Position numbers and translations under genes: made by a program. The notes beneath the pieces are model-generated. The model saw only the letters and a list, made by a program, of their open reading frames with translations. It made no database searches and was not told where the DNA came from. Shown in pieces: positions 3,137 through 21,705 of a stretch of DNA of 56,488 nucleotides; positions within the stretch are counted from its first letter, which is position 1; every line of letters begins with the position of its first letter. This DNA comes from a virus, in IMG/VR virus record IMGVR_UViG_3300044701_000673, positions 1-56,488 of that record. One strand, 5' to 3'.

Positions 3137-5632
3137 TCAGGGGTTGGGGTTGATGCCTGTGCCGGTGCTCACGGCGACCTTCTCACCCGTCGCCATCTCG
3201 GCTGCGGCAAGCAGTTTCGCGGTGTCGTTGTCAGCCGTGTTCATGCGCTCACGGGCCGCGATCTCCTCTGCGGTGCGCATGCTCTCCTGCTGCTGCTTGA
3301 ACATATCAAGCTGCATCTGCTCGGCGCGAGCCTGCTGCTGCGCGGCCAGCTTCTGGGCCTCAAGCTGCTGCTGCGTCTGCATTTTTTGCGACTCAATCTG
3401 CATGCGGCCTTGGTCAATCGCAGCGCGCTGCTGCATCTCCTGACCCTTCATCTGCATGTTCATCTGAGCGATCTGCATGCTGTTGTCCGGCGGCATCGGC
3501 GGCTGCGGCTTGAACTGCTCGGCAGCCTGCGTGATGGCCGCAAGTTCCTGACCGAACCCACCAAGCTGCTGCTCGATCAGTTGCTGGACCTGAAGGATCA
3601 GCTTGACCTGCTGCTCGGCATCCGCCTCAATCAGACCCTCACGCTCTGCCTTGTCCACGGCATTGTGCGACTCAACGAGGTAGTAGTTCAGCAGGTGATC
3701 CTTCAGGTGCTGCGCCATTGCGTAGAGCGACGCCTGCATGATCGGTGGGTTGCCGCCAAGCAGCGGCGACTTCAGGAACGCCATGTGCGTCATGATGTGC
3801 GCCAGGTGATCCTGACGCGGCAGCACATAGAGCGGCCTGCCCATTGCAGCTGCCACGTTCTCGCTGACCGGGTCCATATCCTGCTCGGTCAACAGCGGCT
3901 GCAGGACTTCCTCTCCCGGCACCTTCAGGGTGCGAAGGAACATCTCCTCGACCTTACGCTGGTCGTAGAGCTGCGGCATCATGGCCGCCCGCTGCATGAT
4001 CGCTTGGATCTGAGCAAAGCGCTGCGTCTCGCTAAAGATCGCGGGATCGCTGACCGGCACGACATCCGACGGGCCGTCGAAGTCTGACGGGTCGATCTCA
4101 AGGCCCGATTCCTGCGCTGCGATGTCTTCTTCGGTCAGGTATGCCGAGTTGATGCGGTGCAGGATTTTGAAGCAGCGTGCCATGGCGCTGTGCAGGCGCG
4201 AGTGGATGCTGCTGAACACCACCATGCCCTGCTCAATCAGAGCCATGGTGGTGCCGACGGGCTGGTTAGGGTTCTGGTCAGACAGCTTCTCAAACGAGGT
4301 CTGCACCACGCCCTTGCCCGCGTCCACCAAGAAGCCCAGAAGCTGGAACAGCACCGGGCTCGGCGGGTTGAACGGCATCGGCATGGCAAGCTTGCGCACG
4401 TCGTCGATCAGCGCGCCGCCCTCCATCTCAACCACCTCGGTCGGCTGCAGGTTGATGGTCTGGCCGTTGGGGCCGCCCTTCAACTTCAAGAGCGTGGGCA
4501 CGTTCTGGATGTGGGCGCTGTCGAGCAGGGCGCGCAGGGCGCCCGTCGCGGCACCGCTCAGGCCGCCGATCATGTGCGTCAGGCCGATGGGGTAAGCCCC
4601 GCGCCACGGCACGAACGGGAACTCGACGATCCAGTCCAGCTCCTTGCGGTATTTGTCCTCGGCCTCCCAGTTACGGTAAAGCGACAGGGCTTGTCCGCTC
4701 GACTTGTCGATGCTCAGGATGTACGGGCTCAGGTCTTCTTCGTCGAACGACAGATACGTGTAGATCTCAAAGATCGTGCGCAGGCCGTCCTCGTTGTAGC
4801 TGGTCTCCTTGCGACCCTCGATCTTGTCGTTGGCTTGGCTCGCCTTGCTGAAGTCCGGATCTTCGGGCATGCCGATGTCAACGTCGCGGTACATCCCCGA
4901 CTTGACGCGCTTTTGGTAGTCCATCTTGGTGATGTACTGCACGTGCGTCTTGCGCTCGGCGGTGTAGAAGTTCGTCGCGGCGAACGGCAGGTACACGTCG
5001 TCGATCGGGATGAACTCGCTGGCCGGGCGACGATGCTGCGGGTTCCACATGAACTTCATGTACTGACCGCCGCCGAGGGGGAGCTGCGTGCTCAGCTGCT
5101 CCAGCTCGCCCCGGAACTCGGTCATCTGCTCGGTGGTCTGCCAATTCATGAACTCAGCCTTGCGCTGAGCCTTCTCGACTTTGACTTTGTCCGACTCGCC
5201 GTAGATCTTGCTCTTCACCGGGCCAGAAGGCGGGAAGACCTCCTTCATAAAGCGCGCGGAGAAGTCCACGCAGGCCTCGACCAGCATCGGGTGTACGACT
5301 TTAGTCGCACCTGAGAACTGCGCGCCGCCGGGTGCGTCATCGCCTAGTCCCGTACGACGCAGACCCTCCTCGTAGAGTTTGTCGCGCTTTTCGCGGGCTT
5401 CCTTGTCGCGGTCGATCTTTTCAAGGAGATCCTGCACGCACTCCTTCAGCTCGCCGGGGTCAACCTCGTCGACGATGTTGGCGAAGTGCTCAAGGTTCTT
5501 GCGCTCATCTTCCTCGTTCTCAAGGCGGATGATGGCGCCACCGTCCTCGGTGTCCTCGACCTCTGATGTCTCGTCCATCAGCTCAACCATCTCGCCTTCG
5601 AGCCGGTCCTCGTTCTCGTCAATATCAGCCAC
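3137..5632 (-). CDS. Portal protein
   Basis: An 831-residue protein that forms the dodecameric DNA gateway at one capsid vertex and binds terminase. An acidic N-terminus is followed by an alpha/beta core with VVHPMLVEACVDFSARFMKE and IPIDDVYLPFAATNF, typical of large podovirus-type portals, and a C-terminal third (about 660-800) very rich in Gln, Met and Ala that likely forms the helical barrel/crown. The start is GTG 5632-5630 with GAGG seven bases upstream. It overlaps the giant upstream gene by eight bases and precedes co-chaperonin, scaffold and coat genes. The large size fits the P22-like class rather than siphovirus portals. Confidence 0.85.
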   Translation of the reverse strand: MADIDENEDRLEGEMVELMDETSEVEDTEDGGAIIRLENEEDERKNLEHFANIVDEVDPGELKECVQDLLEKIDRDKEAREKRDKLYEEGLRRTGLGDDAPGGAQFSGATKVVHPMLVEACVDFSARFMKEVFPPSGPVKSKIYGESDKVKVEKAQRKAEFMNWQTTEQMTEFRGELEQLSTQLPLGGGQYMKFMWNPQHRRPASEFIPIDDVYLPFAATNFYTAERKTHVQYITKMDYQKRVKSGMYRDVDIGMPEDPDFSKASQANDKIEGRKETSYNEDGLRTIFEIYTYLSFDEEDLSPYILSIDKSSGQALSLYRNWEAEDKYRKELDWIVEFPFVPWRGAYPIGLTHMIGGLSGAATGALRALLDSAHIQNVPTLLKLKGGPNGQTINLQPTEVVEMEGGALIDDVRKLAMPMPFNPPSPVLFQLLGFLVDAGKGVVQTSFEKLSDQNPNQPVGTTMALIEQGMVVFSSIHSRLHSAMARCFKILHRINSAYLTEEDIAAQESGLEIDPSDFDGPSDVVPVSDPAIFSETQRFAQIQAIMQRAAMMPQLYDQRKVEEMFLRTLKVPGEEVLQPLLTEQDMDPVSENVAAAMGRPLYVLPRQDHLAHIMTHMAFLKSPLLGGNPPIMQASLYAMAQHLKDHLLNYYLVESHNAVDKAEREGLIEADAEQQVKLILQVQQLIEQQLGGFGQELAAITQAAEQFKPQPPMPPDNSMQIAQMNMQMKGQEMQQRAAIDQGRMQIESQKMQTQQQLEAQKLAAQQQARAEQMQLDMFKQQQESMRTAEEIAARERMNTADNDTAKLLAAAEMATGEKVAVSTGTGINPNP

Positions 5633-8600
5633 GGTTGACCTCGCGAAGTTGGTTGATGATCCGGTTTACGGCAGAGGGATCGTATTTGACAGCGCCGCCA
5701 GCCGCAAACTCATTTTTTCCAGCCTTGCTGGCGCGGGTTTCGATTGCGTCTGGGTCGTACTGGGATGCGCCAAGGCCCGCAGCCCCGACAGCCGCGCCTG
5801 CGCTGATGTTCTTTGAGGCGCGCATCGCCGGGTCGAACTTGGCAAAGCGCGAGCGCAAGACGGCGTCGCTGCCTGTTGGGCGATCAGCCAGCATGATGTG
5901 GCTCACGCTTCCAGCGTCTTCAACATCGTTCATGTACGGGATCGACGTGTAACCTTCTTTGGCCAAGCGCTCGCGCATAAACGGCGCAGCGAGGCGACGA
6001 TCCATGTTGTTCGCGTCCGATACCGCCGAGATGAACATCTCTAAGTCCATCTCAGTCCAAGGCTTGCCGGTGACCGGGTTCAAGAACGGCTTGGACAAGT
6101 CAGCCTTCATCGGAAGCGTGAAGCCCAATGCAGGCGGCACGCCTTCAGGCTTGGCAAAGCCCATGTAACGAGCCTCGGCTGCCTGCGGCGTCCCGACGTG
6201 CGGGCCGAGCTGGCTCATGGCCGATTTAGACTGGTTCAGGTCAAACTCTGAGAAGTCATCAGGCGATCTGGACCAGTGGTAGACATCTGACCAATCTTTA
6301 CCGAATGGTGCTGCGTTGGCAGCAGGCGCGCCACCCGTCAGCCCCTCCATCACCGCAGCCGCTGCCGGTGTGCCGACACGCTTGGCAACAGCCGCAGGCC
6401 CGGCGACGCCAGCCACGCCAGAGAGCATGTCGCCCAAGGCGGCCAAGCGGTCATATCCAGACGCATCCGCAGACGTCAGGCGAGACCCGGCGCGCATAGC
6501 GCCACCGATCGCCTCAACCGGATTGAGGTACTTGTTGACCAGCGCCAACCGATCGCCGATGCCGCCGACGTTCATCAGGCTCGGGTCTTGCGCAGGCACC
6601 GCGTTGGGGCTGCGCTCCTGAGCCATCATGTCCAAGTCGCGCAACAAAATTGCGCGCTGGAGTTCGTCGTCGGAATTAACTGCGCCACCCTCGGCGTACT
6701 TTTGGTCGAGATCATCAAGGCTTGAAGCGCGCAGCTTCATTATCTCTTGGATGTCTGCCTCTGGGATGCCTCTGTTTCTGAGTTGTTGAGGCGTAAGTCC
6801 CAGTAAGCCTTTTGCAGGCTCTCCTGTCCCCGGGGCGAGACGAAGTCCGTCACCAGCTCCAGTTCCCCCAGAAGCTCCTCGTCCGACACCGGGCGCTTCA
6901 GGCGATACAAGTCGCTCACCGCCGCGTCCAACAGATCCTTCTGCCTCTGGGATAATCCCTTCAGGTGCGGCCCGATGACTCGGCGCACCTGCTCCACGAA
7001 TGCCTGCCGCCGTGGCTGTTCTGTCTGCATTGCTTCCACTCCATCTCATGACGATGACGGGCGGCATGCCCATGCTTTCGTCCCAGCCATCCGACTTCCA
7101 AGCAGCCAACAGATCTTTGAAGGCCTGCTCACCATGGTCAGCTATATACATGTCTCGGTCAAAAGGAACCCGTCCGACCTCTTCAAAGCCAAATTTTTTG
7201 TAGTATTGTGGCAAAAAACCATCCGGGAAGCGCTTTGACGGGACCGCAAACGCATCAAGGACGGTGACGCCATCTTCGATAGCCTTTGCCATAACGCTGG
7301 GGGCAGCAGTGCCCTTGGAGCCGGGTGCGTTGCTGACGACGCCGACCAGAGCCTTGTCGTCTGGCATCATCTCAACTCCGGCCCAAGAATAGTCCGGTTT
7401 GGCGTCAACGCCGAAAAACACGTCGTCATCGCCGAGCTGATAGACCGTCAGGTCTCCAGTTTTTGCGCCTCTCTTGATGTCGTCCGCAGTGTAGTTGGTC
7501 AGCGCGGGCTTATACTTGTTGTTGTTGATCGCATCAACAAAAGCCTGCGGAGAGGCGCCACCTGCGTTCACTGCTTTCGTCGTGGGTTTCCACTTATTGA
7601 GCAGGGAGTTGGTGATGATCCGCGTGTCGATCGGCGACAGGCGCATCGCCGACTCAACTGGATATTGATTGCTTCTTGTTTGGAGAAGTCGCTCCAGATC
7701 TTCGACCTGCTTGCCGGTGACTTCTTGGATGGGAAGCTGCAGGTCGAACGCGCGACGGCCCCCCTTGTTGAACTCAGGACCAAAGGCCCTGATGTTCTTC
7801 TCGCCCCAGAAATCTGGGAACATCTCAAAAGTCGAGATGTTCTGGTCCAATGCTCCAAAGACGCGGCCACGGATACCATAACGATAGCTTGGATGGACAG
7901 GCAGACCTTCTGCCAACAGATCGACAGGCGGCGCGCTGAAGTCTGGCTCAATGAACAAAAGCGTGTCTCGGGGGTTGGCGCCAGCATACCGTGGGTCAAC
8001 AGTTTCCTGCAGCAAGCGATTGATGTTGGGAAGCCCCTGCTCCTGCATGCCCTTGCTGCCGATGATGTCGGCAATTCTGCTGCGCTCCTGAAAGCTTGCG
8101 TTGTTAATGAACTCTTGGATGTTCGGGCTTTCAAAGCCCGGGAAACGCTCCAGACGGGAAAGAGCTGGATCCCCACCAGCCGCAGACATGCGAACGCGGG
8201 TGTCTAGTTCTTGGAGGACGTCGCGCGGAAGGCGTTGGTCACGAGCGTAAGCCTCTGTCGTCTTGATCAGAGAATTAATGAAGCTGATGTTTGACTGATG
8301 GCTTGTCGGGTTCATGGCCGTGACGGCGATGAGGTCTGCGCCAGATCCAGCCTTCTTCGAGCCAACATGCTTGCCCTGTACAGCCCATGCCAAGCCAGCG
8401 TCTTGGCTGGATTTCAACAAAGGATAACCCGGTCCGCCCATCATGGGCTCAGGCACGTCAATCTTTGAAGCATCAATGCCAGTGTAATAACCGCCAGTTC
8501 TCGTCAAGTCTGCCACGGTTGGGATGATGCGGGCGTCAAGTATGTCTTTCGGTGTGATGCGAGGAATTGGCGCCAGAGGGGCTTCTTGGTCCGCGCGAGC

Positions 8601-10184
8601 GCTGTCGAACGGGGAGCGCGTGATCGGGTTGCTATACATCACCGGCACTGGGCCGGGCTGATTAAGCCGATCCAAGACATCACGGCCAACGGCGCGCATT
8701 GTATCGCCAGCCGCCTGCGTCGTGGGCGATGCCCCGAGCAGGCTCTCCATCACCGCAGTCGCAGCTGGCGCGCCGACACGCTTGGCAATGGCTGCGGGGC
8801 CAGCAACGCCAGCAACGCCCGAGAGCATGTTGCCCAGTGCAGCAAGGCGATCATAGCCGCCCGCATCGGGGTCCATCAGATCGCGGCCCGCACGCATCGC
8901 GCCGCCGATCGCTTCGACTGGGTTGAAGGTCTGATTGATCAGCGCCAAGCGCTCGGGAATACCGACGCCGAGGTCCAGCATGCCGGGCCTCTGAGGTGCC
9001 ACCCGAGCGCGCGGCACGCCGCCCTGCCCCGCGAGGTCTTCTTCGTACAGACCCTGCATCTGCTGCGCCAACTGGCGCGCCATGTAGGCCTCCTCGTCTT
9101 CCTCGACAACGCCGCCCGGAGCATACTTCTGGGTCAACTCGGCAAGGCCGCCCTCGGCAAAGCCCTGAGCCATGTTGAGGATGTCGTAGCCCTCGCTGAT
9201 GCGGTCAAAGCCGCTGCCCCGATACTTCGGGTCATCAATGCGCCAGCGGATGAAGTTCTTGCCCAAGATGTCGTGGGCCGCGTCGGGGTCGATGTTGGGG
9301 TTGCCCAAGAACGTCTCGCGGGTTCTGGCGTAGCTGGGGTCGTTCTCCATCTCATCGCGCAGATACATTGCCTGCGCGTTGAGAGCCTCCTGACCGGGAA
9401 CGATGCGGCCCGCCGGGTCGATCAGCCCGCGATCAGCCATGAACGACATCAGGCGGTCGGCCCGGTCGCCCTGCCAGCTCAGCATGCCGACATTGGTCGC
9501 CTTGTTGGCTGCGTCGGTGTGCGAGCCGTACAGATACGCCGGATTGAAGCTGCCCTCGCGGTTGATCTCAGCCGTCAGCGCCTTGGCCTGAGCGTCCGAG
9601 AACCCGGCAGCCTTGAAGGAATCAAACACCATCTTGGCCGTCTTGGATCGATCGGGATTGGCATTGCCTCCCGCCTCGACGCGGGCAGCATGCGGCCTCG
9701 GCTCATCGGCGTAGGCCTCGTAAAGATCCTCCAAGCTTCCGGCTGCACCGCTGCGGCCCAGAGCGCGCACGGGGTCGAACTCCTGCGTGCCCGCATCTGC
9801 GGCCTTGCTCTGCAAAGTACGGATCAAATCCTGAAACGATTCCAGCAGCGAGAAGTCGGGCTTCTTGATGCCCTCGTACTTCTCGTCAAGTTCCTCAAGC
9901 CCCACAGCGCCCCCCGTCTTCCACTTAACTTTGTCCGCCCAGTAGGCCGGGCTCGACTTGCCCTTGGCGATGTTCTTTGCGTGGCGAGCCTTGAACGAGG
10001 CGCGCTTTTGCTTCATGGCGTCCGACTCGCCCTCCTTGGGCTTGCCTGCCGTGCTGGCACCCTGCTCACCAAAGCGGATGATTTTTTCCTTGCCATCAAC
10101 GCGCGTCTTGACCACGTGCGACTTGGTCGGGTGGTCGGGCGTGCGGCGCGGCTTGTCGAGCGGCAGGCTGTCTTTGTCGATCAT
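5625..10184 (-). CDS. Giant polyvalent virion protein: lysozyme-, GNAT- and ADP-ribosyltransferase-like domains
   Basis: A 1519-residue multidomain protein between terminase and portal. Residues ~165-340 look like a tail-lysozyme domain (ALTAEINREGSFNP, VGMLSWQGDRADRL). Residues ~910-1025 resemble a GNAT acyltransferase (VLDAFAVPS, LPQYYKKFGFEEVGR). Residues ~1300-1440 resemble phage polyvalent ADP-ribosyltransferases (DVYHWSRSPDDFSEFD, then GPHVGTPQAAEARY). A linker module of ~135 residues (PVEAIGGAMRAG, LAALGNMLSGVAGVAGPAA) occurs twice, at ~341-490 and ~1152-1285. The short motif Y/F-A-x-GG-x-V occurs three times, with a related GGAV elsewhere. The start is ATGA-coupled to the upstream gene with AGGA seven bases away. 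Probably packaged and ejected into the host; enzymatic roles are inferred. Residues ~1050-1115 are low-complexity and overlap a second frame. Confidence 0.75.
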   Translation of the reverse strand: MIDKDSLPLDKPRRTPDHPTKSHVVKTRVDGKEKIIRFGEQGASTAGKPKEGESDAMKQKRASFKARHAKNIAKGKSSPAYWADKVKWKTGGAVGLEELDEKYEGIKKPDFSLLESFQDLIRTLQSKAADAGTQEFDPVRALGRSGAAGSLEDLYEAYADEPRPHAARVEAGGNANPDRSKTAKMVFDSFKAAGFSDAQAKALTAEINREGSFNPAYLYGSHTDAANKATNVGMLSWQGDRADRLMSFMADRGLIDPAGRIVPGQEALNAQAMYLRDEMENDPSYARTRETFLGNPNIDPDAAHDILGKNFIRWRIDDPKYRGSGFDRISEGYDILNMAQGFAEGGLAELTQKYAPGGVVEEDEEAYMARQLAQQMQGLYEEDLAGQGGVPRARVAPQRPGMLDLGVGIPERLALINQTFNPVEAIGGAMRAGRDLMDPDAGGYDRLAALGNMLSGVAGVAGPAAIAKRVGAPAATAVMESLLGASPTTQAAGDTMRAVGRDVLDRLNQPGPVPVMYSNPITRSPFDSARADQEAPLAPIPRITPKDILDARIIPTVADLTRTGGYYTGIDASKIDVPEPMMGGPGYPLLKSSQDAGLAWAVQGKHVGSKKAGSGADLIAVTAMNPTSHQSNISFINSLIKTTEAYARDQRLPRDVLQELDTRVRMSAAGGDPALSRLERFPGFESPNIQEFINNASFQERSRIADIIGSKGMQEQGLPNINRLLQETVDPRYAGANPRDTLLFIEPDFSAPPVDLLAEGLPVHPSYRYGIRGRVFGALDQNISTFEMFPDFWGEKNIRAFGPEFNKGGRRAFDLQLPIQEVTGKQVEDLERLLQTRSNQYPVESAMRLSPIDTRIITNSLLNKWKPTTKAVNAGGASPQAFVDAINNNKYKPALTNYTADDIKRGAKTGDLTVYQLGDDDVFFGVDAKPDYSWAGVEMMPDDKALVGVVSNAPGSKGTAAPSVMAKAIEDGVTVLDAFAVPSKRFPDGFLPQYYKKFGFEEVGRVPFDRDMYIADHGEQAFKDLLAAWKSDGWDESMGMPPVIVMRWSGSNADRTATAAGIRGAGAPSHRAAPEGIIPEAEGSVGRGGERLVSPEAPGVGRGASGGTGAGDGLRLAPGTGEPAKGLLGLTPQQLRNRGIPEADIQEIMKLRASSLDDLDQKYAEGGAVNSDDELQRAILLRDLDMMAQERSPNAVPAQDPSLMNVGGIGDRLALVNKYLNPVEAIGGAMRAGSRLTSADASGYDRLAALGDMLSGVAGVAGPAAVAKRVGTPAAAAVMEGLTGGAPAANAAPFGKDWSDVYHWSRSPDDFSEFDLNQSKSAMSQLGPHVGTPQAAEARYMGFAKPEGVPPALGFTLPMKADLSKPFLNPVTGKPWTEMDLEMFISAVSDANNMDRRLAAPFMRERLAKEGYTSIPYMNDVEDAGSVSHIMLADRPTGSDAVLRSRFAKFDPAMRASKNISAGAAVGAAGLGASQYDPDAIETRASKAGKNEFAAGGAVKYDPSAVNRIINQLREVNRG
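6740..7030 (-). CDS. Candidate nested gene in another frame of the giant virion gene
   Basis: A 96-residue frame wholly inside 5625-10184 but in a different frame of the same strand. It starts MQTEQPRRQAF with GGAG eight bases before the ATG at 7030. The product looks like a normal helical soluble protein (VEQVRRVIGPHLKG, KDLLDAAVSDLYRLKR, DEELLGELELVTDF), whereas the giant frame in the same stretch reads as Gly/Ala/Arg/Pro-rich low complexity, as an out-of-frame reading of GC-rich coding DNA would. It is either an overlapping gene or the remnant of an inserted domain captured by frame change. No family recognised. Confidence 0.5.
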   Translation of the reverse strand: MQTEQPRRQAFVEQVRRVIGPHLKGLSQRQKDLLDAAVSDLYRLKRPVSDEELLGELELVTDFVSPRGQESLQKAYWDLRLNNSETEASQRQTSKR

Positions 10185-10348
10185 TTCTTCCTCGCAGCTC
10201 GCATGTTGTCGACGAGGTTCGGATAGGGGCGGCCCGCAGCCTCGGCCATGCGCTTGGCGCTGTCTTTCTTCTTATCCGAGAGGGGCTTGCTCTCGCCGAG
10301 ATCCTTGGGGCGCTTCTTGTCCCAGACGGGCTTAGGTTTAGACGGCAT
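10181..10348 (-). CDS. Small Lys-rich protein
   Basis: A 55-residue basic protein (MPSKPKPVWDKKRPKD ... NMRAARKK). The ATG at 10348 is chosen over a start 16 codons upstream because AAGGGA lies about eight to ten bases before it. It overlaps the terminase end by 11 bases and the giant gene's ATGA at its own end, so it is translated within the terminase-portal operon. The many Lys and Arg residues suggest nucleic-acid or capsid contact, but nothing more can be said. Confidence 0.6.
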   Translation of the reverse strand: MPSKPKPVWDKKRPKDLGESKPLSDKKKDSAKRMAEAAGRPYPNLVDNMRAARKK

Positions 10349-11909
10349 AAGGATTTCCCTTCTCGCGCTTGTATTGCTTGGGCTCGTCCCGGTCACGAGC
10401 TTGCGGCAGTTCGAACCATCCGTCGTTCTTCAGGTAGATGATCGCCTGAGTGAACGTGTCCACATAATCGTCATGGTCGGCCACCGGGAATTTGCTCAGT
10501 TGCTTCATGAAAGGCTGCGCCCAACTCACAGCCTGCCCACGGTTCTTCCCGCTCTCCGGCACCCACAACAAACCCAGCTCCAAGGTCGGCGCGGCTTGAT
10601 GCGCGCGGCTGACCTTGTCCGCCATGCCCGGATTATACCCGACCGCAGGCACTTTCGCTAGGCGCAAATCTTGCAGCAGGGACTGCCCGCTGGCCTTGGC
10701 TTCGACCAAGATGCGATCGGGCCTGCGTGCGCGCCTGATGCCGTCCTTGACGCTGGTGCCGCCGTACTCTGTGCCCCAGTCCTTGATCGCCCGGTTGCGC
10801 AGGTCAGGGTAAGACAGATGCTCATCCCACGCATCTATGAGCATGGCGTTGCGCTCGTTGTTGTGCGTGAAGATCGCCCAGACCGAGCAGGCTGTGGGGT
10901 CGCCCGTGGTCTTCTCGGTGAAGGCGCAGTCGTAGGACTGCAGGATGTATTCGAACTGCGGCAGCGCCTTGTCAGACGGCCAGAGCTCAAAGTAGTCCGT
11001 CTTGAGGATGCCGCCGCCGGTCGGGGTCGGATCTTGCTGCAGCTGGCCAGCCGTGCCGTACTCGCCGAGGAGCTGCTTGAGGGTGGTGATCTCTTTCTCG
11101 CCGAAGCGCTCCGGGCAGATCAGCTCGCCGATCTTCTTGCGTGGATCGTACGGGCCGAGGATGGTCCGCCGAGCCGCGCCGTCCCATTCAGCCGGAATGC
11201 AGATGTGTTCCCACCCGCCGATGTCTTCGAGGATGTGGCCGCTGATGTCCTTCTCATGCAGGCGCTGCATGACAGTGACCATGGCGTCGGTCTTCGGGTT
11301 GTTCAGTCGGGTCGACCACACCTGATCGAACCACTCCAGCGCCGACTCTCGCATGGCCTCTGACTGGGCATCCTGCGCGCCATGCGGGTCGTCAAGGATC
11401 AGGCGCGAGCCGCCTTCACCCGTTGCCGTGCCGCCGACCGAGGTGGCGATGCGGTAGCCTGTCTGATCGTTCTCGAAGCGCTGCTTGGCGTTCTGGTCGC
11501 CTGCCAGCCTGAACATGTGGCCCCAGCGCTCCTGATACCACGGCGACTGCACAAGGCGCCGAGCCTTCAAGTTGTCGCGGATCGACAGGTTGCCCGAGTA
11601 GGACGCGCAAAGGAACTTCTGTGCCGGATCGGTGAGCCACTCCCACATGGGCCACATGACGCTGACGATGGTTGACTTGGAGTGACGGGGCGGGATGTTG
11701 ACCAGCAGGCGGTGGATCTCGCCTGCGCTGACAGCCTCAAGATGCTCGCAGATCGCCTCGATGTGCCACGAGGGAATGAACGGGACGCCGGGCTCAACCA
11801 CATGCCACGCTTGGCGAACGAACTCGTAAAGCGATGCTGACGCCGCCCTGCGCTCCTGCTCCTTGCGGATGAGGTCCAGCATGACCTCGGGGCTGAGCTG
11901 AGCGTTCAT
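10338..11909 (-). CDS. terL: Terminase large subunit
   Basis: A 523-residue ATPase-nuclease that drives DNA into the prohead. The N-terminal ATPase has a Walker A-like NIPPRHSKST (71-80), Walker B ILDDPH (171-176) and a coupling-type VTVMQRLHEKD segment. The C-terminal RNase H-like nuclease half shows acidic residues in QSYDCAFTEKT (~335-345) and ILVEAKASGQSLLQDL. This arrangement matches the large terminase group with a Terminase_6-type C-terminal domain. It starts with an ATGA overlap after the small subunit and is followed by the portal block. Confidence 0.93.
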   Translation of the reverse strand: MNAQLSPEVMLDLIRKEQERRAASASLYEFVRQAWHVVEPGVPFIPSWHIEAICEHLEAVSAGEIHRLLVNIPPRHSKSTIVSVMWPMWEWLTDPAQKFLCASYSGNLSIRDNLKARRLVQSPWYQERWGHMFRLAGDQNAKQRFENDQTGYRIATSVGGTATGEGGSRLILDDPHGAQDAQSEAMRESALEWFDQVWSTRLNNPKTDAMVTVMQRLHEKDISGHILEDIGGWEHICIPAEWDGAARRTILGPYDPRKKIGELICPERFGEKEITTLKQLLGEYGTAGQLQQDPTPTGGGILKTDYFELWPSDKALPQFEYILQSYDCAFTEKTTGDPTACSVWAIFTHNNERNAMLIDAWDEHLSYPDLRNRAIKDWGTEYGGTSVKDGIRRARRPDRILVEAKASGQSLLQDLRLAKVPAVGYNPGMADKVSRAHQAAPTLELGLLWVPESGKNRGQAVSWAQPFMKQLSKFPVADHDDYVDTFTQAIIYLKNDGWFELPQARDRDEPKQYKREKGNPYAV

Positions 11910-13743: not shown

Positions 13744-13961
13744 CTCTTCACCGCGATGTATTCGAAGAGGCCGAAACCTGCCCGCCTGCAAAACAGGAAA
13801 CACAGCTTTTCAGATTCCGCTTTGGCAGCCGCGTAGCGATGCAGGCCGCCGCAGCACTGTCCGACATGGTAAACGATGCGGTCACCCTTCTGCGCCTCTC
13901 CCAGCGCGCGGTAGAGGGCATCCTGCTTGGTGTCGCCGGTGATGTATATCGTGTTGCTCAT
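13740..13961 (-). CDS. Small protein coupled to the DpdA-like gene
   Basis: A 73-residue protein (MSNTIYITGDTKQDAL) with CCGGLHRYAAAKAESEK and an aromatic tail. Both ends overlap neighbours by four bases (ATGA), so it is made with the TGT-like enzyme. The nearby Cys pairs (QCCGG, CFLFC) could bind a metal. It may be an accessory or specificity subunit, inferred only from coupling. Confidence 0.55.
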   Translation of the reverse strand: MSNTIYITGDTKQDALYRALGEAQKGDRIVYHVGQCCGGLHRYAAAKAESEKLCFLFCRRAGFGLFEYIAVKR

Positions 13962-14542
13962 TCAATCACCCCGTCGCTGAGAAAGTCGATGTCATCTTCC
14001 AGATCGGCCTTCGGTCGGCGGACAGCTTTGACCTCGGCTCCGGGGAAGGCCAGCTTCACCGCGTTGACCAGCCCGTTGCGATGCTCATGCAATGCGACAG
14101 CAACTTCCCTCATGCTGTGGATCGCGATGCCGGGTCGCTTGGCGTAAGCTGCTGGCCACTCCCTGCCGTCTTCGATGATGCCGTAGACGGTGCCCTCGTA
14201 CTCATGCTCCCAGATCATCGGGTCGGAGATCGGCCTGCCCAGAGCGACCGCCTCGGCATCCATAGCGTTCAACCCACGGATGCATATCTCGACCCAGAAC
14301 TTTGTCTTGTCGGCGTCCTGCGCGTCAATGGCTGCATTCAGTCCAGCCATCGCCTTTCCCCACCTCGCCGCGCTGTCGGGCGACACCAGCTCGGGCAGTC
14401 GGTCGATGCCCCAGCGTTTGTCCATCTCATTCGACGCCCCGTCGAGTGGAGCCAGCGCGCTGTCGCATTTAATTTCAGCCGCCGTCGCCTGCTTGAACAG
14501 AACCCGGTCATCTTTCTTCTGGCGTTTCGGTCTCTGAGCCAT
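13958..14542 (-). CDS. Conserved phage protein of unknown function, first gene of the DpdA cassette
   Basis: A 194-residue soluble protein with a basic start (MAQRPKRQKKDDR) and conserved-looking segments WGKAMAGLNAAIDA, FWVEICIRGLNAMDAEA and MIWEHEYEGTVYGI. The ATG at 14542 is chosen over one nine codons upstream because GAGG lies about eleven bases before it. It follows the repeat/hairpin region and opens the ATGA-coupled run to the TGT-like enzyme and transporter. No motif reveals its role. Confidence 0.55.
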   Translation of the reverse strand: MAQRPKRQKKDDRVLFKQATAAEIKCDSALAPLDGASNEMDKRWGIDRLPELVSPDSAARWGKAMAGLNAAIDAQDADKTKFWVEICIRGLNAMDAEAVALGRPISDPMIWEHEYEGTVYGIIEDGREWPAAYAKRPGIAIHSMREVAVALHEHRNGLVNAVKLAFPGAEVKAVRRPKADLEDDIDFLSDGVIE

Positions 14543-14580
14543 CGTGCCTGTCCTCGTTGCCTGTCTCATCAGTTAACCTT

Positions 14581-14719
14581 CCTCACCTTTTCCTCACCTC
14601 AGGTCACAAAACCATCCACCTCCTCACCCCTACACCCCCTTTAGGGGGTGGGGGTGAGGAGGAAGGATGTTTTCCTCACCTTTCCTCACCTTTTCCTCAC
14701 CTTTGGCTTCAAGGTGAGG
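14581..14719. repeat. Iteron-like CCTCACC/GGTGAGG array
   Basis: Eight copies of a heptamer lie in a 160-base non-coding stretch: CCTCACC at 14581, 14592, 14622, 14674, 14684 and 14695, and its inverse GGTGAGG at 14653 and 14713. Neighbouring direct copies are 10-11 bases apart, one helical turn, as expected for cooperative binding of one protein face. The stretch has no credible gene. A replication origin, a packaging site near terminase, or an operator for the flanking genes are possible; the sequence alone does not decide. Confidence 0.6.
14619..14662. repeat. Large inverted repeat (hairpin/cruciform)
   Basis: A perfect 12-base outer stem (14619-14630 with 14651-14662) and a 7-base inner stem (14633-14639 with 14644-14650) with a four-base loop and a two-base bulge, in the centre of the heptamer array. 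No U-run follows on either strand, so it is not a standard terminator. Its arms contain one direct and one inverted copy of the heptamer. Confidence 0.65.
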
Positions 14720-14730
14720 TGACATTTTTA

Positions 14731-15360
14731 TCACAGTTCACCCTGCATTTCCTCGTCGCAGTCACCACAAATGATCCTTGTTCCGACCTTCGCCCACGCC
14801 TTTGCGCCGCAGCATGAGCATGTGAATTTGACCTTGGAAAGGTCTTTCTTCTTCTCGGCTGCGGGGCGCGGCTGGGTGAAGTAGGGCAGCGAGAATCCAT
14901 CGGCAATGAGCTTGTGCATGGACGTCTCGAAGGCACCGCCAGCCTCAACGTAATGGGTCATCTGGCGGCCCGTCTGCTTGCCTCCCGGCTCGCCCGTGTT
15001 GCTGGGGATGAGGCCCACCCGCTCCATAAGCTTTACCCACTCCCGGTTGTGGTTGCCCTTGCTTCCGGGGGTGCCGTATTCCTGCTGCTCAAGGTGCGTC
15101 ATCTCGTGAACGAGGGTCGACAGGACGGCGTCCAGAGTGCGGTCCATGGTGTCGGGATTGAGGGCGATCTCGTGGGTGGGATCGCTGTCTTCGCGGTGCT
15201 TGAACTGCTCGGCCCAGAAGTAGCCGTGTGCCTTGCGCTTGCGGGTCAGGGTGAAGAGAACAGACGGCAGGCGGTGGTCGAACAGTTCCTTGTTGAAGTG
15301 GTTGAAGGCCTTGTCGAGGTTCTCGTAGGTCTCGGCGGTGGGGGTCTGGTAGTTGGTCAT
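14731..15360 (-). CDS. SprT-like zinc metalloprotease
   Basis: A 209-residue SprT-family protein. The catalytic helix has HEMTH (H85, E86, H89) with a third ligand probably in the NHNREW segment; a C-terminal zinc ribbon has CSCC and CGDC Cys pairs. The family (SprT/Spartan) is linked to breakdown of DNA-bound or cross-linked proteins. The ATG at 15360 overlaps the upstream stop (TGATG). Its place beside the repeat array and replication genes fits a role in DNA metabolism or host takeover, which is inference. Confidence 0.8.
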   Translation of the reverse strand: MTNYQTPTAETYENLDKAFNHFNKELFDHRLPSVLFTLTRKRKAHGYFWAEQFKHREDSDPTHEIALNPDTMDRTLDAVLSTLVHEMTHLEQQEYGTPGSKGNHNREWVKLMERVGLIPSNTGEPGGKQTGRQMTHYVEAGGAFETSMHKLIADGFSLPYFTQPRPAAEKKKDLSKVKFTCSCCGAKAWAKVGTRIICGDCDEEMQGEL

Positions 15361-15542
15361 CACAGCTTCTCCCATGCTGATTTATGTTTCCCGCCCTGCC
15401 AGCCGTGGCCAGATGACGTATCGCTCATGCGCACGGTGGCCCAGCCATGCTCGTTCCACTCGGTCAGGCGCTCGTAGGTGGCGACGCCGGGGTGACCCCA
15501 GCTATCGCGCGTTTCGGTGGTTTTGGTTTCAATGACGGTCAT
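15360..15542 (-). CDS. Small protein of unknown function
   Basis: A 60-residue protein (MTVIETKTTETRDSWG) with AAGGAG about ten bases before the ATG at 15542; an upstream in-frame start lies inside a hairpin and lacks such a site. It contains aromatic and Gly/His residues (GHGWQGGKHKSAWEKL). It is coupled to the SprT-like gene by a one-base overlap. Confidence 0.5.
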   Translation of the reverse strand: MTVIETKTTETRDSWGHPGVATYERLTEWNEHGWATVRMSDTSSGHGWQGGKHKSAWEKL

Positions 15543-15569
15543 GGTGGTTGCTCCTTGTTGCTGTGTTGG

Positions 15570-15609
15570 CCTTCGGGATGCCAGCCCCGCAGGGCTGGTC
15601 ACCGGAAGG
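15570..15609. other. Stable hairpin in leader of the 60-aa gene
   Basis: An inner 7-bp stem (CCAGCCC with GGGCTGG, four-base loop) is extended by a second stem CCTTC/GAAGG. It lies in the 89-base gap upstream of the gene starting at 15542. No U-run follows in either direction, so a leader structure, attenuator or RNA-stability element is more likely than a terminator. Confidence 0.45.
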
Positions 15610-15631
15610 TCATGCGCCTACTCTCAACTGG

Positions 15632-15847
15632 TTAAGACACAAAATCGCAGCTTTGAGATTTTACTCCGCCCTTTGGCCCGATTGTGACGGTGTAGCAGCG
15701 GCGCTTGATAAAAACTTCTACCGTGGCCAAACCGTCGATGTCACTGCTCCGGGCCTGAACGTGATCTGCAATGCGAAGCTCTGCGGCCAAAACACGGCGG
15801 GCTGCGTAGATTTGGTTGTGGGTCAAGTTGTCTGTCCAGAAGGTCAT
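15632..15847 (-). CDS. Small early protein with duplicated leader
   Basis: A 71-residue protein starting MTFWTDNLTHNQIYA at the ATG at 15847. The leader (AAGGA about twelve bases upstream) is nearly identical to that of the plus-strand gene at 20978. It contains a strand-rich part (TVEVFIKRRCYTVTIGPKGG). It is the first gene after a matched promoter at 15883-15910. Function unknown. Confidence 0.6.
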   Translation of the reverse strand: MTFWTDNLTHNQIYAARRVLAAELRIADHVQARSSDIDGLATVEVFIKRRCYTVTIGPKGGVKSQSCDFVS

Positions 15848-15857
15848 CTTGTTCGTT

Positions 15858-15876
15858 TCCTTGTTTGCTAGTTCGT
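15858..15876 (-). repeat. Duplicated mRNA leader, copy B
   Basis: The 19-base element ACGAACTAGCAAACAAGGA, read on the minus strand, is identical to 20951-20969 on the plus strand. It lies at the same distance (16 bases) from its -10 box and carries the ribosome site of its gene. Confidence 0.8.
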
Positions 15877-15882
15877 ATGACC

Positions 15883-15910
15883 ACCATACAGCCTGCTCAG
15901 TACGATGCAA
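15883..15910 (-). promoter_or_regulatory. Leftward early promoter, copy B
   Basis: On the minus strand TTGCAT (15910-15905), 16-base spacer, TATGGT (15888-15883). The plus-strand promoter at 20917-20944 is TTGCAC, 16 bases, TATTGT, followed after the same 16 bases by the same leader. An inverted repeat CAAC-6-GTTG (15908-15921) overlaps the -35, as a palindrome does at the other promoter. The two look co-regulated. Confidence 0.6.
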
Positions 15911-15943
15911 CAAGAAAGTTGACGTTTGCGAAATTATTTTCGC

Positions 15944-18304
15944 TCACACCTCGTCGTGGCTGATCCAGTCGCCCTGCACGATGACGGCCACCTCTCTGGC
16001 CTGCCTCGGGTCGGTGATCCTATCGACGGCCAGCACGTTGGTCTTGATCCACGTCTTGACGATGGACGCGACCTTGGCCTTGCCTGCCTTGTCGCTGATG
16101 TCGATGCCGATCATGTCGCCCACGGCGACACCCACCCACCTCTTGGACTGCACGCTCTCACGGTACGGGTCACCGTCTTCTAAGGCGTTGGCCACGATCC
16201 TCTGGATGTTCCTTGCGTCCTTGGCGCTGATACCGTCGAAGGCATCGGGCAGGCTGTAGGGCACGCAGACGCCGATCCACTCGCCGTTGTCGATCTTGAC
16301 GCCCTCCATCTTCCTGTAGACCGCAGCGGCTGCTGGCGGGGCCAGATTGGCCTTCCCGTCATCTACCCGGAACACCGACCTCGCCTCGGTCTCGTCGATC
16401 CCAAGCTTCACGGCGTCGTCGGCTGACATGCGGTTGACCACCCGCGCCGCCCTAGCAGCCCCGATCAGGCTGCCCGCGCCACGCACGCTGTCGATGCTGG
16501 CATCATCGCTGCCATTGCCCTTGCGGATGTGGTGGACCAGCCCGATGGCGCATTTGGTCTCGTCAGCCACGCGCCTTATTTCCGCCACAATCGCGTTCAC
16601 GGCCATGTTATCATTTTCTTGAATGGCGTGGGCATTAACGAATGGGTCTATGAACACGCAGCCGATCTGCTTCTGCGGTATCTGCTTGCAGAGGTACTCG
16701 ACCAGCTTGGTATTGGGCAGGACGCCGTCGCGGGTCTGGATGCCAAACTTGAGGCTGAAGTCTCGGCCCGCGTTGACGAAGAGGCGCCCGCGCACGTCAT
16801 CGGGCTTGATCCCGTAATGCCGCATCGCAGCAAGGACGCGGCGCTGTATTTCCTCTAGGGGATCCTCGAGGTTGACCAGCCAGACGTTTGTCCGCTCCTT
16901 CACTTCCTCGCCCAAGAGCGGGCGGCCCGTCACGATGGCGAGGGCTTCCACGATCTGCAGGGATGTCTTCCCGATGCCGCCTGCCGATGCCAGCACGCTG
17001 ACGAAGGACCGCAGATAGTGGCTGGCGTATATCCAGCGGCGCGGTTCGATGCTGGCCTCGTCGAACATATCGTAGAGGGTGGGCCAATCCGGCGCGCTCT
17101 CGGGGGCGTCCGGGGTGTCGAAGTCGTCAAGGTCTATGTCGTCGTCCGACGAAATTTCGTTGGCGGGGTCTGCCACCTTTGTTTCGTTGACGATTCTCTC
17201 CGACGAAATTTCGTTGGAGGTGGGGGCCACATAGTCGAAATCATCCATGCCGTTCTGCGGAATGTCGATCTCCGCGTTGGTGCCCCTGATCTCGGCACCG
17301 TAGGCACGCACGGCGGCGTCGAAGTCTCCACGATGCTCGTAGTGGACCCACAAATCCCACGCATCACCCCAGCAGTATGAATGCTCGCCCAGAGACTTTT
17401 GCCTGCCGACACCAGCTGCCGCGTCTGAGCCTGACAGGCTGACCCAATGGGTGCCGAAATTCTGCGTCGCGTAGCTGTGGCTGGTTTGGTAGCGGGAGCG
17501 GTAATGATGGGACGATCCGCGCCGCTCGTATTGATAGCGTGCGAACAGGTCTTCGATGGAGTGGTCAGCGTTGAAGGCGTCCACCGGGCTGACCTGATCG
17601 GGGAACTTCTGGCGGCGTTCGGCACGCTGGCGGTCACGCTCCCGGCGCGCGATCTCGGCCTGCTCCGCGGCGAGGCGGTATTGTTCCAGCCTGCGGTCGA
17701 TCTCTTGGCGGATGGCGCTGTCTGCGTCGAGACGCAGGGTGCCAGCCCGGATGATGCGGTGCTGGTAGAAGATCGGGGTGAGATCCGGGTTGCGTTTGCC
17801 GAGCGGCACGTTGGGCAGGTAGATCGGCTGCCCGCAGCGTGCCAGCGCGCCGTCGGGGTGAATGCCTTGGGCGTGCAGGAGATCGAAGAGGGCGGTCTGG
17901 GCCAACTCGTAGTCGGCGCCGGTCAGAAAGGACGCCAGAGGCAGCAGGACGCGCCACTTGCGGTTTTCCGGGGTTGCGCCCGAGGATGAATAGGCGAGCA
18001 GGCTCACGGGCCCGCAGACGGCCTCCACAGCGGTCAGCACGTCGTCGAGGCTGGGGTTGCCACGGTCGATGTCGAGGGCCAGCATGCGGTACGCCCCACG
18101 CTCGCGCTGCGCCTCGTGGGATCTGCCATCATGCTCGCGGTAGGTCGAGGGGATGAAGAAGTCGGCGTCCTGCTTCTCCTTGGCCTGCGGGGTGGCGACC
18201 ATGCGGGCGATCTCGGCCCAAGAGATGCCAGGGTATGTCTGGCCGGGCTTGTCGATCAGGGTGTGGAAGGAGCCGGGGGCGGTCAGGAAGCGGATGTCAG
18301 ACAT
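15944..18304 (-). CDS. Primase-helicase (AEP-type primase fused to RepA-like RecA-fold ATPase)
   Basis: A 786-residue replication protein. The N-terminal half resembles archaeo-eukaryotic-type primases (RMLALDIDRGNPS; YSSSGATPENRKWRVLLPL). The C-terminal half is a RepA/AAA_25-type helicase with Walker A ASAGGIGKTS (~440-448 from this start), VWLVNLEDP, FIDPFVNAH (Walker B) and IGLVHHIRKGNGSDD. The acidic linker repeats NEISS. The start is uncertain: ATG 18304 and GTG 18328 both lack a ribosome site, whereas a good site with ATG exists at 18379 in the same frame but is followed by one TAA at 18344. It lies with SSB, nuclease and resolvase genes; no DNA polymerase was recognised, so the host enzyme is probably used. 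Confidence 0.82.
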   Translation of the reverse strand: MSDIRFLTAPGSFHTLIDKPGQTYPGISWAEIARMVATPQAKEKQDADFFIPSTYREHDGRSHEAQRERGAYRMLALDIDRGNPSLDDVLTAVEAVCGPVSLLAYSSSGATPENRKWRVLLPLASFLTGADYELAQTALFDLLHAQGIHPDGALARCGQPIYLPNVPLGKRNPDLTPIFYQHRIIRAGTLRLDADSAIRQEIDRRLEQYRLAAEQAEIARRERDRQRAERRQKFPDQVSPVDAFNADHSIEDLFARYQYERRGSSHHYRSRYQTSHSYATQNFGTHWVSLSGSDAAAGVGRQKSLGEHSYCWGDAWDLWVHYEHRGDFDAAVRAYGAEIRGTNAEIDIPQNGMDDFDYVAPTSNEISSERIVNETKVADPANEISSDDDIDLDDFDTPDAPESAPDWPTLYDMFDEASIEPRRWIYASHYLRSFVSVLASAGGIGKTSLQIVEALAIVTGRPLLGEEVKERTNVWLVNLEDPLEEIQRRVLAAMRHYGIKPDDVRGRLFVNAGRDFSLKFGIQTRDGVLPNTKLVEYLCKQIPQKQIGCVFIDPFVNAHAIQENDNMAVNAIVAEIRRVADETKCAIGLVHHIRKGNGSDDASIDSVRGAGSLIGAARAARVVNRMSADDAVKLGIDETEARSVFRVDDGKANLAPPAAAAVYRKMEGVKIDNGEWIGVCVPYSLPDAFDGISAKDARNIQRIVANALEDGDPYRESVQSKRWVGVAVGDMIGIDISDKAGKAKVASIVKTWIKTNVLAVDRITDPRQAREVAVIVQGDWISHDEV
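17146..17217. repeat. Two copies of a 12-bp palindrome inside the primase-helicase linker
   Basis: The 18-base sequence CCGACGAAATTTCGTTGG occurs at 17146-17163 and again at 17200-17217. Its core ACGAAATTTCGT is a perfect palindrome. Both copies encode the NEISS motif of the acidic linker, so the repeat may come from protein duplication, but exact identity with palindromic symmetry also suits a protein-binding site near a replication gene. Confidence 0.55.
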
Positions 18305-18321
18305 TGTGCGCACCACGACGC

Positions 18322-18350
18322 TTGCCACCAGATATAGACTGCATTATAGT
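18322..18350 (+). promoter_or_regulatory. Candidate rightward promoter of a small RNA
   Basis: TTGCCA (18322-18327), exactly 17 bases, TATAGT (18345-18350) on the plus strand. About 100 bases later lies a strong plus-strand terminator. Overlapping it on the minus strand is a perfect TATAAT (18348-18343) that could instead serve the primase-helicase gene. Confidence 0.45.
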
Positions 18351-18379
18351 TTTTCCTGTGTTTGGTTGCTCTGACACAT
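18344..18379 (-). CDS. Leader peptide (11 codons) in frame with primase-helicase
   Basis: ATG at 18379 with GAGGAG nine bases upstream encodes MCQSNQTQEKL and stops at TAA 18344. It is in the same frame as the primase-helicase, which continues open after that stop. It may be a true upstream ORF coupling translation, or the original start of the gene cut off by a nonsense change. Confidence 0.35.
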   Translation of the reverse strand: MCQSNQTQEKL

Positions 18380-18455
18380 GGAACTTGCTCCTCGCCTGTT
18401 CCGCCTGCCTTTGACTTGAACCCCGGCGCGTTGGTCTCACGCCGGGGTTCTTTTT
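18357..18455 (+). ncRNA. Candidate ~100-nt antisense RNA targeting the ssb leader
   Basis: A short transcript is predicted from the promoter at 18322-18350 to the terminator ending at 18455. It carries TTGCTCCTC (18385-18393) and GCGTTGGTCTCA (18428-18439, in the terminator loop region). Both are perfect complements of the ssb mRNA leader (plus-strand positions 19116-19124 and 19128-19139), covering its ribosome site, and they occur in collinear order for pairing. No convincing gene is inside. The alternative is that the minus-strand leaders of ssb and primase share duplicated sequence and no such RNA is made. Confidence 0.4.
18418..18455 (+). terminator. Intrinsic terminator, plus strand
   Basis: A perfect 11-bp stem (18418-18428 with 18440-18450), an 11-base loop and five T on the plus strand. 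On the minus strand the stem is followed by AAGTC, so it does not terminate the ssb-to-primase mRNA. No plus-strand gene precedes it, implying a small RNA or a block against antisense transcription. Confidence 0.7.
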
Positions 18456-18458
18456 ATG

Positions 18459-19112
18459 TCACCACGGGATATCGTCCCCGAGCTCTTCCTTAATGCTTTG
18501 GCGCTTCTCTTCGGCCAATGGCTTGCGCGACTGCTCAAACGGGTCAGCCTTGCTCTCGACGGTATCGAAGTCATCCATGCCGCCGTCGCCATAGCGGGCT
18601 TCGGTGACCTGCACCGCGTCTAGCAGAAGGCTGATGCCGCCATTGCCATCGGGGTCGATCACGGCCACGGCCCAAGCGCGCACGGTGCCTTTGGAGCCGC
18701 CCCAGAAGGCTAGATCGGCCAGCGGCTGCTTCTGCCCGTCAATGACGGTCGGTGCCTTGTTGGGCGTGCCGTCCTTCTTCATGCCGTTGCGCTTGGCGGT
18801 AAACTGCACGATCCCGGTTTCATTGCCGTTTTCGTCCTTCAACTTCTTCATGCTGAAGATGGTTTTGAATTGGGGCATCTTGCTGTTGCGCGAGCGGCAA
18901 GCCTCGTAATGGGCGCGCAGCTCTTCGTAAAGAGGCTTGGCCTGTTCCTTTGGCATTTCGAAGGCCACGCTCCAAGCCGCGTTGGATGCCGTCGGCGCGC
19001 AGGGTTCGCTGGCCTGCTTCTGGGTGTTGAAGCGGTATGTCCCGTTCAGCTTGGGGTATTGCAGGGTCACGTTCTTGACGAGAACCTTGTGGAAGTCATC
19101 GTTGTTAGCCAT
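18459..19112 (-). CDS. ssb: Single-stranded DNA-binding protein (T7 gp2.5-like)
   Basis: A 217-residue OB-fold-type protein with an acidic C-terminal tail ending ELGDDIPW, the usual protein-docking end of phage SSBs. The core shows TLQYPKLNGTYRF, MKKLKDENGNETG and RAWAVAVIDPDG strands, as in T7 gp2.5-like (DUF2815-type) proteins. It coats single-stranded DNA in replication and recombination. The start has GAGGAG seven bases upstream. Its leader is a predicted target of the candidate antisense RNA at 18357-18455. It lies between a RecE-like nuclease and the primase-helicase. Confidence 0.82.
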   Translation of the reverse strand: MANNDDFHKVLVKNVTLQYPKLNGTYRFNTQKQASEPCAPTASNAAWSVAFEMPKEQAKPLYEELRAHYEACRSRNSKMPQFKTIFSMKKLKDENGNETGIVQFTAKRNGMKKDGTPNKAPTVIDGQKQPLADLAFWGGSKGTVRAWAVAVIDPDGNGGISLLLDAVQVTEARYGDGGMDDFDTVESKADPFEQSRKPLAEEKRQSIKEELGDDIPW

Positions 19113-19136
19113 GGTTTGCTCCTCTTGGCGTTGGTC

Positions 19137-19949: not shown

Positions 19950-20383
19950 TTCTTCCTCCATCCGTAATATGCGATCAGCGCCGCCTCGGCCCGACCGTCG
20001 TCTTTCTTGCGCGCCCAGAGGTGGGACTGATCCGGGAAGACGCTTGATGCGTATGCTCTGGATGCGTCCTTGTCGGTCGAGAGGCCGAAGTGCTTCTTCC
20101 ACGCGGCTGGCGGCACCTCGTTCGTCGGCACGCCCGCGAAGAACAGGCAGGCCTTCAGTTCTCCATATGCCTGCGCGATGCGGGCTACGTTGGCGGTTCC
20201 GATCATTCTCGGAAAATAGGGTTTCTCCACCCAAGCGCATCGTACTGCACCAATCTCGGACAGGATGGCGCGCTTTTCCTCAATGGTGCCGGGCATGTCG
20301 TAGACGCGCACGCTCATGTCGTCACCGTCCATGACCGCGATGGCTCCGGTCTTGCCGGGGTCGATGCCGATGTAGAGTGCCAT
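19946..20383 (-). CDS. RuvC-like Holliday junction resolvase
   Basis: A 145-residue RNase H-fold protein: YIGIDPGKTGAIA with D8, a second acid in CAWVEKPY (E53), and DDGRAEAALIAYYG at the end (D129, E133). This is the acidic set of RuvC-family resolvases, a little shorter than bacterial RuvC. It would cut branched DNA before packaging. The start is TGATG-coupled to the upstream gene. Confidence 0.85.
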   Translation of the reverse strand: MALYIGIDPGKTGAIAVMDGDDMSVRVYDMPGTIEEKRAILSEIGAVRCAWVEKPYFPRMIGTANVARIAQAYGELKACLFFAGVPTNEVPPAAWKKHFGLSTDKDASRAYASSVFPDQSHLWARKKDDGRAEAALIAYYGWRKK

Positions 20384-20846: not shown

Positions 20847-20873
20847 GGCATCCTCCTGCGTTTCGGTTCGATC

Positions 20874-20902
20874 TGTCTATTTGTTAAAAAAATATGCGTC
20901 AA
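20874..20902 (-). promoter_or_regulatory. Leftward early promoter
   Basis: TTGACG (20902-20897), 17-base AT-rich spacer, TAGACA (20879-20874) on the minus strand, leading to the HTH regulator and replication genes. The -35 adjoins the palindrome at 20903-20922. Confidence 0.6.
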
Positions 20903-20944: not shown

Positions 20945-20950
20945 GGGGGC

Positions 20951-20969: not shown

Positions 20970-20977
20970 TGAACAAG

Positions 20978-21704: not shown

Positions 21705-21705
21705 A

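Follow-up and report, generated by a model that had tools for sequence, protein, structure and literature searches.

Gene content of the locus between TerL and the portal

In the window (the whole stretch of viral DNA that was analysed, 56,488 nucleotides), matches to Pfam and PHROGs placed TerS, TerL (10338-11909, minus strand; phrog_38, E 1.4e-91, and PF17289), a large ORF and the portal (3137-5632, minus strand; phrog_1216, E 3.8e-16) in that order, in agreement with the virion-region placement that the first-pass annotation had proposed for the large ORF. This ORF, hereafter the slot ORF, was confirmed as 1519 codons at 5625-10184, on the minus strand (previously left unstated), with an ATG start and a stop that overlaps the portal start. 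Comparison of its codons 1-342 with those of the homologous ORF of locus L082, its nearest relative, showed 22, 12 and 58 differences at codon positions 1, 2 and 3, respectively, with 50 synonymous and 26 non-synonymous codons; since the differences are mostly at third positions, the slot ORF is a selected coding gene. A basic, lysine-rich ORF of 55 aa (10181-10348, minus strand), whose stop overlaps the slot ORF start, separates it from TerL. This small ORF was found with E < 1e-10 in 32 of the 40 loci showing both TerL and the portal, and is a constant part of the locus while the cargo varies.

The nearest named relatives by portal were four Caulobacter phage records (RW, for example, with 51.7% identity), followed by a metagenomic record (45.5%) and the roseophages CRP-902 (38.7%) and CRP-901 (38.4%). 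The order of domains in the slot ORF is a phrog_7595 domain, Phage_lysozyme2, a hydrophobic repeat, a domain that we call X, a GNAT domain, a second copy of the repeat, an ART-like domain and a C-terminal tail.

N domain and wall enzyme

Residues 9-88 (9921-10160, minus strand) matched phrog_7595, a family of no assigned function, with E 2.1e-33. In other phages this N domain is a separate small protein ending at KVKW or KVLW, and the fused N domains run on into a short glycine-rich joint exactly where the separate proteins stop. Residues 181-313 (9246-9644, minus strand) matched Phage_lysozyme2 (PF18013) with E 2.3e-8 and 34.7 bits against a cut-off of 28.2, so that the lysozyme previously placed at about residues 165-340 was borne out by the domain search.

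The lysozyme region was most similar to tape-measure and tail-tip proteins of Acinetobacter and Xanthomonas phages, as would be expected if the protein were a tail-tip or baseplate lysozyme whose additional domains act on the cell surface without ever entering the cell. We regard this as very improbable: GNAT enzymes require acetyl-CoA and ARTs require NAD, both of which are found inside cells, and the gene sits with the packaging genes while the tail-like genes of the window lie elsewhere.

Domain X and the GNAT domain

The full-length slot ORF gave no phmmer match in the PDB. The X and GNAT stretches, used as queries, retrieved 25 and 29 loci, respectively, from viral contigs, and residues 541-1070 were folded from a 16-member alignment. 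The GNAT part of the model had a block pLDDT of 59-86, while the X part was mostly below 50 apart from a helical stretch. Comparison of the GNAT part (residues about 858-1050; 7035-7613, minus strand) with solved structures by VIA-align showed that the top rows were all GNAT-fold acyltransferases, the best being 8zt3_F (Z 11.6, rmsd 2.9, 139 aligned residues), with RimI at Z 10.3; Foldseek gave a best E of only 0.003. Several of the Streptomyces phage proteins that weakly matched residues about 923-1007 (best E 1e-3) are annotated as acetyltransferases. The usual pyrophosphate-loop motif of GNATs is Q/RxxGxG/A; the loop found here, GSKGTA (residues 955-960), keeps the G and the A and has a G at the Q/R position. 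A GNAT fold for residues about 858-1050 is supported by the predicted model, with Z up to 11.6, and the GNAT-like part first suggested at about 910-1025 was upheld.

Domain X (residues about 541-857; 7614-8564, minus strand) is conserved in relatives and had no significant Pfam or PDB profile match. HHalign gave E 0.25 for it against an X-type domain (X') of L083 and E 0.027 against X' of L137; it distantly matched L087 with E 1e-7, and L087 matched L083 with E 3e-11. The identity of domain X between relatives is 66-88%, and stretches resembling it are located before or after ART-like domains.

The ART-like domain

An ADP-ribosyltransferase-like domain had been proposed for the C-terminal part of the protein. 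The direct searches with this domain (residues about 1283-1461 with the following tail; 5802-6338, minus strand) were all negative. None of 12 members matched any Pfam family at E up to 1, ART-PolyVal (PF18760) included; PHROGs gave nothing better than E 0.17, and the PDB sequences gave no profile match at E up to 10. Nothing significant was found by tblastn against phages with the domains of the window and of L135, nor in the scan of genome contigs. The AlphaFold2 model of residues 1165-1519 had a pLDDT of 35.5. HHalign against seven ART-PolyVal sequences gave 11.3-15.3, the level of 294 decoys (median 12.4, top 21.5), so that a profile search over the region previously delimited as about 1300-1440 found no match to ART-PolyVal beyond decoys.

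The indirect evidence came from locus L089, which was retrieved with the final 44 residues of the window's ART-like domain (40% identity, E 6e-4). In the L089 protein a true ART-PolyVal domain (E 2.2e-9, above cut-off) precedes a tail that is shared with the window ORF (HHalign E 1.2e-6, 23 columns, 74% identity). In a joint alignment, the invariant YH of the window domain fell on the ART histidine and its invariant GPHVGT on the second ART motif. The H-Y-D active site of ART-PolyVal (as given in PMC5512222) is absent from the window domain: H1303 is present, whereas H1329, invariant in the 12 members, stands where a Y or F is expected in ARTs; E1422 is also conserved.

Because the direct tests were negative while the L089 tail, the motif alignment and the frequency of ART-PolyVal in the slot point to an ART, we term residues 1283-1461 ART-like, a label that is indirectly supported, and do not assign them to ART-PolyVal. 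Of the original proposal, the wall enzyme and the GNAT fold in one protein beside the packaging genes were supported, and the ART reading was supported indirectly. It is quite possible, although we do not favour it, that residues 1283-1461 form an unrelated conserved domain having only the following tail in common with ART proteins. The negative direct tests argue for this, as does a link to L089 that rests mainly on the tail; the position of YH and GPHVGT on the first and second ART motifs argues against it, as does the prevalence of ART-PolyVal, the most frequent Pfam family among the slot proteins.

The slot between TerL and the portal in relatives

A portal scan confirmed 248 stretches, of which 80 loci were kept; to these were added loci chosen for carrying related modules, so that the sample is non-random. 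The contigs are metagenomic, many of them fragments, and were selected by their likeness to the window. Among the 87 loci examined, the window included, 85 show a portal and 40 show TerL upstream of it. In all 40, one or more ORFs exceeding 350 codons lay between TerL and the portal, with gaps of 1,514-7,333 nt; as the slot proteins are mutually related, these and the following counts are not independent events. Altogether 82 slot ORFs of at least 300 aa were collected, and the removal of 25 near-duplicates left 57 non-redundant slot proteins, fragments included. A joint Pfam scan covered 43 of the 57 at E up to 0.001; the window ORF, L003, L083, L084, L085, L096 and L099 were scanned singly, and L082, L183 and five fragments stood outside the Pfam scans. 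The 43 proteins contained ART-PolyVal (12), SLT (8), CHAP (1), Phage_lysozyme2 (1) and PBECR5 (1), and the wall enzymes among these families (Phage_lysozyme2, SLT and CHAP) are non-homologous enzymes found in the same slot.

The slot is not always filled. In Caulobacter phage RW only an annotated tRNA lies between TerL and the portal, and in CRP-901 TerL and the portal adjoin; neither has a large slot protein, so the wider group can do without one. Among the cultured relatives by portal, Pelagibacter phage HTVC027P carries two large proteins in the slot position. The RW annotation splits the large terminase into two pieces, which flank a methyltransferase gene (L129, 2445-5247). The slot ORFs of L158 (5774-8980), L170 (4906-8982) and L172 (5827-8982) have a common FGYRRAF-type C-terminal end and repeated G/Y-rich stretches; by eye, these ends resemble that of an outer-membrane barrel.

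The hydrophobic repeat and the exchange of modules

A DNA repeat of 213 columns with 76.5% identity joins nucleotides 1230-1440 and 3630-3840 of the ORF (codons 410-480 and 1210-1280), and an HMM of both copies extended them to residues about 396-492 (8709-8999, minus strand) and about 1195-1292 (6309-6602, minus strand). The first-pass annotation had described a duplicated linker of about 135 residues, a length that fits if the joint before each copy (at residues 354 and 1163) is included. We dropped a membrane segment as an identity for the repeat, its best 19-residue hydropathy mean being 1.35, below the usual threshold of 1.6.

Comparison of the slot ORF with those of related loci, whose portals are 72-98% identical, showed several variants of module content. 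L082 (portal 98% identical) has the order N-lysozyme-repeat-ART-tail without X-GNAT, and L084 and L086 have a different stretch between the repeat and ART, that of L084 giving a sub-threshold match to the GNAT family Acetyltransf_CG (E 0.017). In L083, X' precedes the second repeat and ART. L096 and L099 have X-GNAT and no ART, and L099 has an SLT transglycosylase (E 5.5e-29) in the position of the window's lysozyme. In L134 a CHAP domain with a repeat is followed by a separate repeat-ART ORF, and L004 combines two ART-PolyVal stretches with an N domain in mid-chain. In other phages repeat-X-GNAT or repeat-ART is encoded separately; in the three loci read in detail (L093, L098 and L102), a free-standing X-GNAT gene lies between TerS and a TerL of a different type, this type being judged by reading. 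L137 (7605-9794, 730 aa) and L139 (7605-8843, 413 aa) form a clean pair, having one ORF with and without an X'-type domain.

Judged from these sequences, the duplicated linker is one repeat copy per effector module, several effector modules starting with a repeat. Since effector modules carry their own copy, also when they are separate genes, the duplication reflects modules gained or lost; the duplication claimed earlier is thus real, but it is not a spacer made inside the protein. The best reading of the slot as a whole is that of a hypervariable cargo site, at which wall enzymes and effectors are exchanged as modules. L090, in which X-GNAT is a separate gene, has 77-94% DNA identity to much of an upstream gene block of the window (13783-22785), which hints that head-gene blocks are exchanged between phages of different terminase types.

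The joint motif and the C-terminal tag

The joint of the slot proteins, in its strict form [FY]AxGGxV, occurred 139 times in the 57 proteins, against a mean of 0.28 and a maximum of 2 in 100 shuffles, while five rearranged patterns of it occurred 0 times. The relaxed form [FYW]xxGGx[VIL] was present in 56 of the 57, and the only near-invariant columns in an alignment of 43 slot proteins were the A, G and G of the motif. In the window ORF, joints are located after the N domain (WKTGGAV, a relaxed motif, residues 88-94; 9903-9923), at residues 342-348 (FAEGGLA; 9141-9161), 354-360 (YAPGGVV; 9105-9125) and 1163-1169 (YAEGGAV; 6678-6698), all on the minus strand. The ends of homologous segments lay within 12 residues of a joint in 161 of 695 cases where 60 were expected, a number that no circular shift out of 1000 attained; the other 534 ends lay away from joints, which therefore mark some module borders and not all.

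The last motif was located within 35 residues of the C-terminus in 41 of the 57 slot proteins and within 90 in 51; the 16 without a motif in the last 35 residues include some fragments. We call this terminal element the tag. It consists of [FY]AxGGxV and about 20 further residues of the YD[PS]xxVDxI[VI]NQ type, and in the window ORF it is FAAGGAV plus 20 residues (residues 1493-1519; 5628-5708, minus strand). In the two-ORF slots of L170 and L172 the first ORF is without the tag. Comparison of X-GNAT proteins inside and outside the slot, in the loci collected for these modules, showed that all 17 outside lacked the motif and ended soon after an RNRGIP-like segment, whereas all three inside (window, L096 and L099) continued from this segment into a joint.

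In a count over 761 non-redundant ORFs of the loci the signal was weak. These ORFs contained 39 [FY]A.GG, compared with 31 for [LIV]A.GG and 5-22 for the eight patterns made by rearrangement; the strong signal sits in the slot proteins. The window alone contained nine [FY]A.GG, against a shuffle mean of 1.13 and a maximum of 6 in 500 shuffles; of these nine, the occurrence within an RCC1-like protein looks accidental. Two large late-region ORFs of the window (24030-26135 and 26145-29045, minus strand) carry one strict motif each, and one of the two weakly matches a tail-measure family; the ORFs at 30296-32038 and 52724-53413 have only [FY]A.GG, without the strict motif. Neighbouring proteins at 45565-46713 and 46717-48102 (minus strand) match RCC1-like (regulator-of-chromosome-condensation) PHROGs. 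The strict motif was absent from 50-kb stretches of RW and CRP-901, and the remaining RW stretch had a single occurrence, located in a mechanical ORF that runs opposite to annotated genes.

The joint and the tag may be a shared label for loading or processing. A polyprotein, whose joints would be cut during head assembly to give separate cargoes and whose last motif would free a peptide of about 20-25 residues, is the main alternative, and we consider it somewhat unlikely. Its attraction is that modules are fused or separate in the same phage kind, with a separate N ORF in L158, L170 and L216 and the separate repeat-ART ORF of L134, that the fused N domains enter the joint precisely at the end of the separate ones, that cleavage at the G-G core would be plausible, and that the T4 head protease removes a targeting sequence (PMC5694885). 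However, no candidate protease was identified, and the MCP-like, portal and scaffold-like proteins of the window are all without the strict motif. A loading tag and polyprotein cleavage may also both be valid together.

The joints could alternatively be flexible or recombination-prone linkers in a protein that is not packaged and acts in the producing cell, where it might, for instance, serve lysis or work against rival phages. Some free-standing N proteins are located near lysis genes, and the codons of the joints are biased relative to background (alanine GCC 0.61 against 0.27, for example), as expected of inherited or recombined DNA; this bias cannot separate a DNA-level from a protein-level cause, because relatedness is still in the data. 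The location between TerL and the portal in every locus showing both, the presence of the joint in the two other large late-region ORFs of the window and a C-terminal position in 41 of 57 proteins, unexpected for a mere linker, make this explanation improbable.

Proposed role of the slot protein

We consider, with a probability of about 0.7, that the slot ORF codes for a polyvalent, probably injected cargo protein located at a hypervariable slot and carrying a common C-terminal loading tag. The packaging view is favoured because of the position between TerL and the portal and because a single chain combines a wall enzyme with a GNAT fold, and the tag is preferred as a loading signal because unlike cargoes carry it, because it is terminal and because X-GNAT has it when in the slot. 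We infer head packaging, injection, the function of the tag, the enzyme activities and their targets as follows. The cargo protein would be made beside the genes for the packaging motor and the portal, would be loaded into the head via the tag and would exit the virion together with the DNA. Its lysozyme would open the wall, and the GNAT and ART-like enzymes, once brought into the host, would modify host proteins early in infection. The modules of the cargo are swapped at the slot, with module ends tending to fall at [FY]AxGGxV joints.

A wider version of this proposal is tentative: [FY]AxGGxV plus about 20 residues might be a portable C-terminal address or processing signal that loads arbitrary proteins into heads, with the internal copies marking cargoes fused in a polyprotein, the slot serving as a plug-in site for injected effectors and the ART-like domain representing a new H-H-E clade of ARTs. 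As the slot products have little in common but one short motif, this motif is a testable candidate for a head-loading signal in a phage kind other than T4. The tag would offer a way to spot injected effectors and a possible means of loading chosen proteins into phage particles, and the slot proteins would provide a set of enzymes with which uncultured phages probably act against their hosts early in infection.

Comparison with known systems

The cited part of PMC9503650 takes ARTs coded near terminase and portal genes as head-packaged. Polyvalent proteins with ART, GNAT and lysozyme domains were predicted to be injected by Iyer et al. (2017; PMC5512222, in the sections used here), who report that one GNAT family of these proteins typically has an ART neighbour. 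The slot ORF resembles them in combining unlike enzyme domains (lysozyme, GNAT and, indirectly, ART) in one chain, with portal and terminase genes near. It differs from them, as described in those sections, in its fixed slot between TerL and the portal, the exchange between close relatives and the recurrence of the joint and the C-terminal tag; the main text of PMC5512222 does not use the terms linker, shuffling or transmembrane. Polyvalent proteins with lysozyme, ART and GNAT are thus already known, and no description of the slot, joint or tag was found in the open-licence PubMed Central literature, among the matches listed. Like ART-PolyVal (PF18760) itself, the ART-like domain has the YH motif and, as judged by eye, the order of motifs, and its downstream tail recurs after the ART-PolyVal domain of L089; it differs in having no significant profile match and a histidine at the second active-site position.

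The MuF polymorphic toxins, as presented in part of PMC12226406, also have a constant virion-associated part, a variable effector and linkage to head genes. No MuF model matched the window ORF at E up to 1 or the 43 jointly scanned slot proteins at E up to 0.001. Unlike MuF toxins, the slot proteins have several modules per chain, their wall enzyme is swapped too, and the only conserved neighbour seen is the constant 55-aa ORF rather than a cognate immunity gene.

In the papers used here, a signal directing injected proteins to the phage head is described for T4 (PMC5694885). As in T4, a short common element may direct unlike proteins into the head, those of T4 being the internal proteins and an ART (Alt). 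The T4 capsid targeting sequence is N-terminal, 10-20 residues long and removed, and the slot proteins show no such N-terminal propeptide of 10-20 residues; the element of the window type is instead C-terminal or internal, has a G-G core and is a candidate signal.
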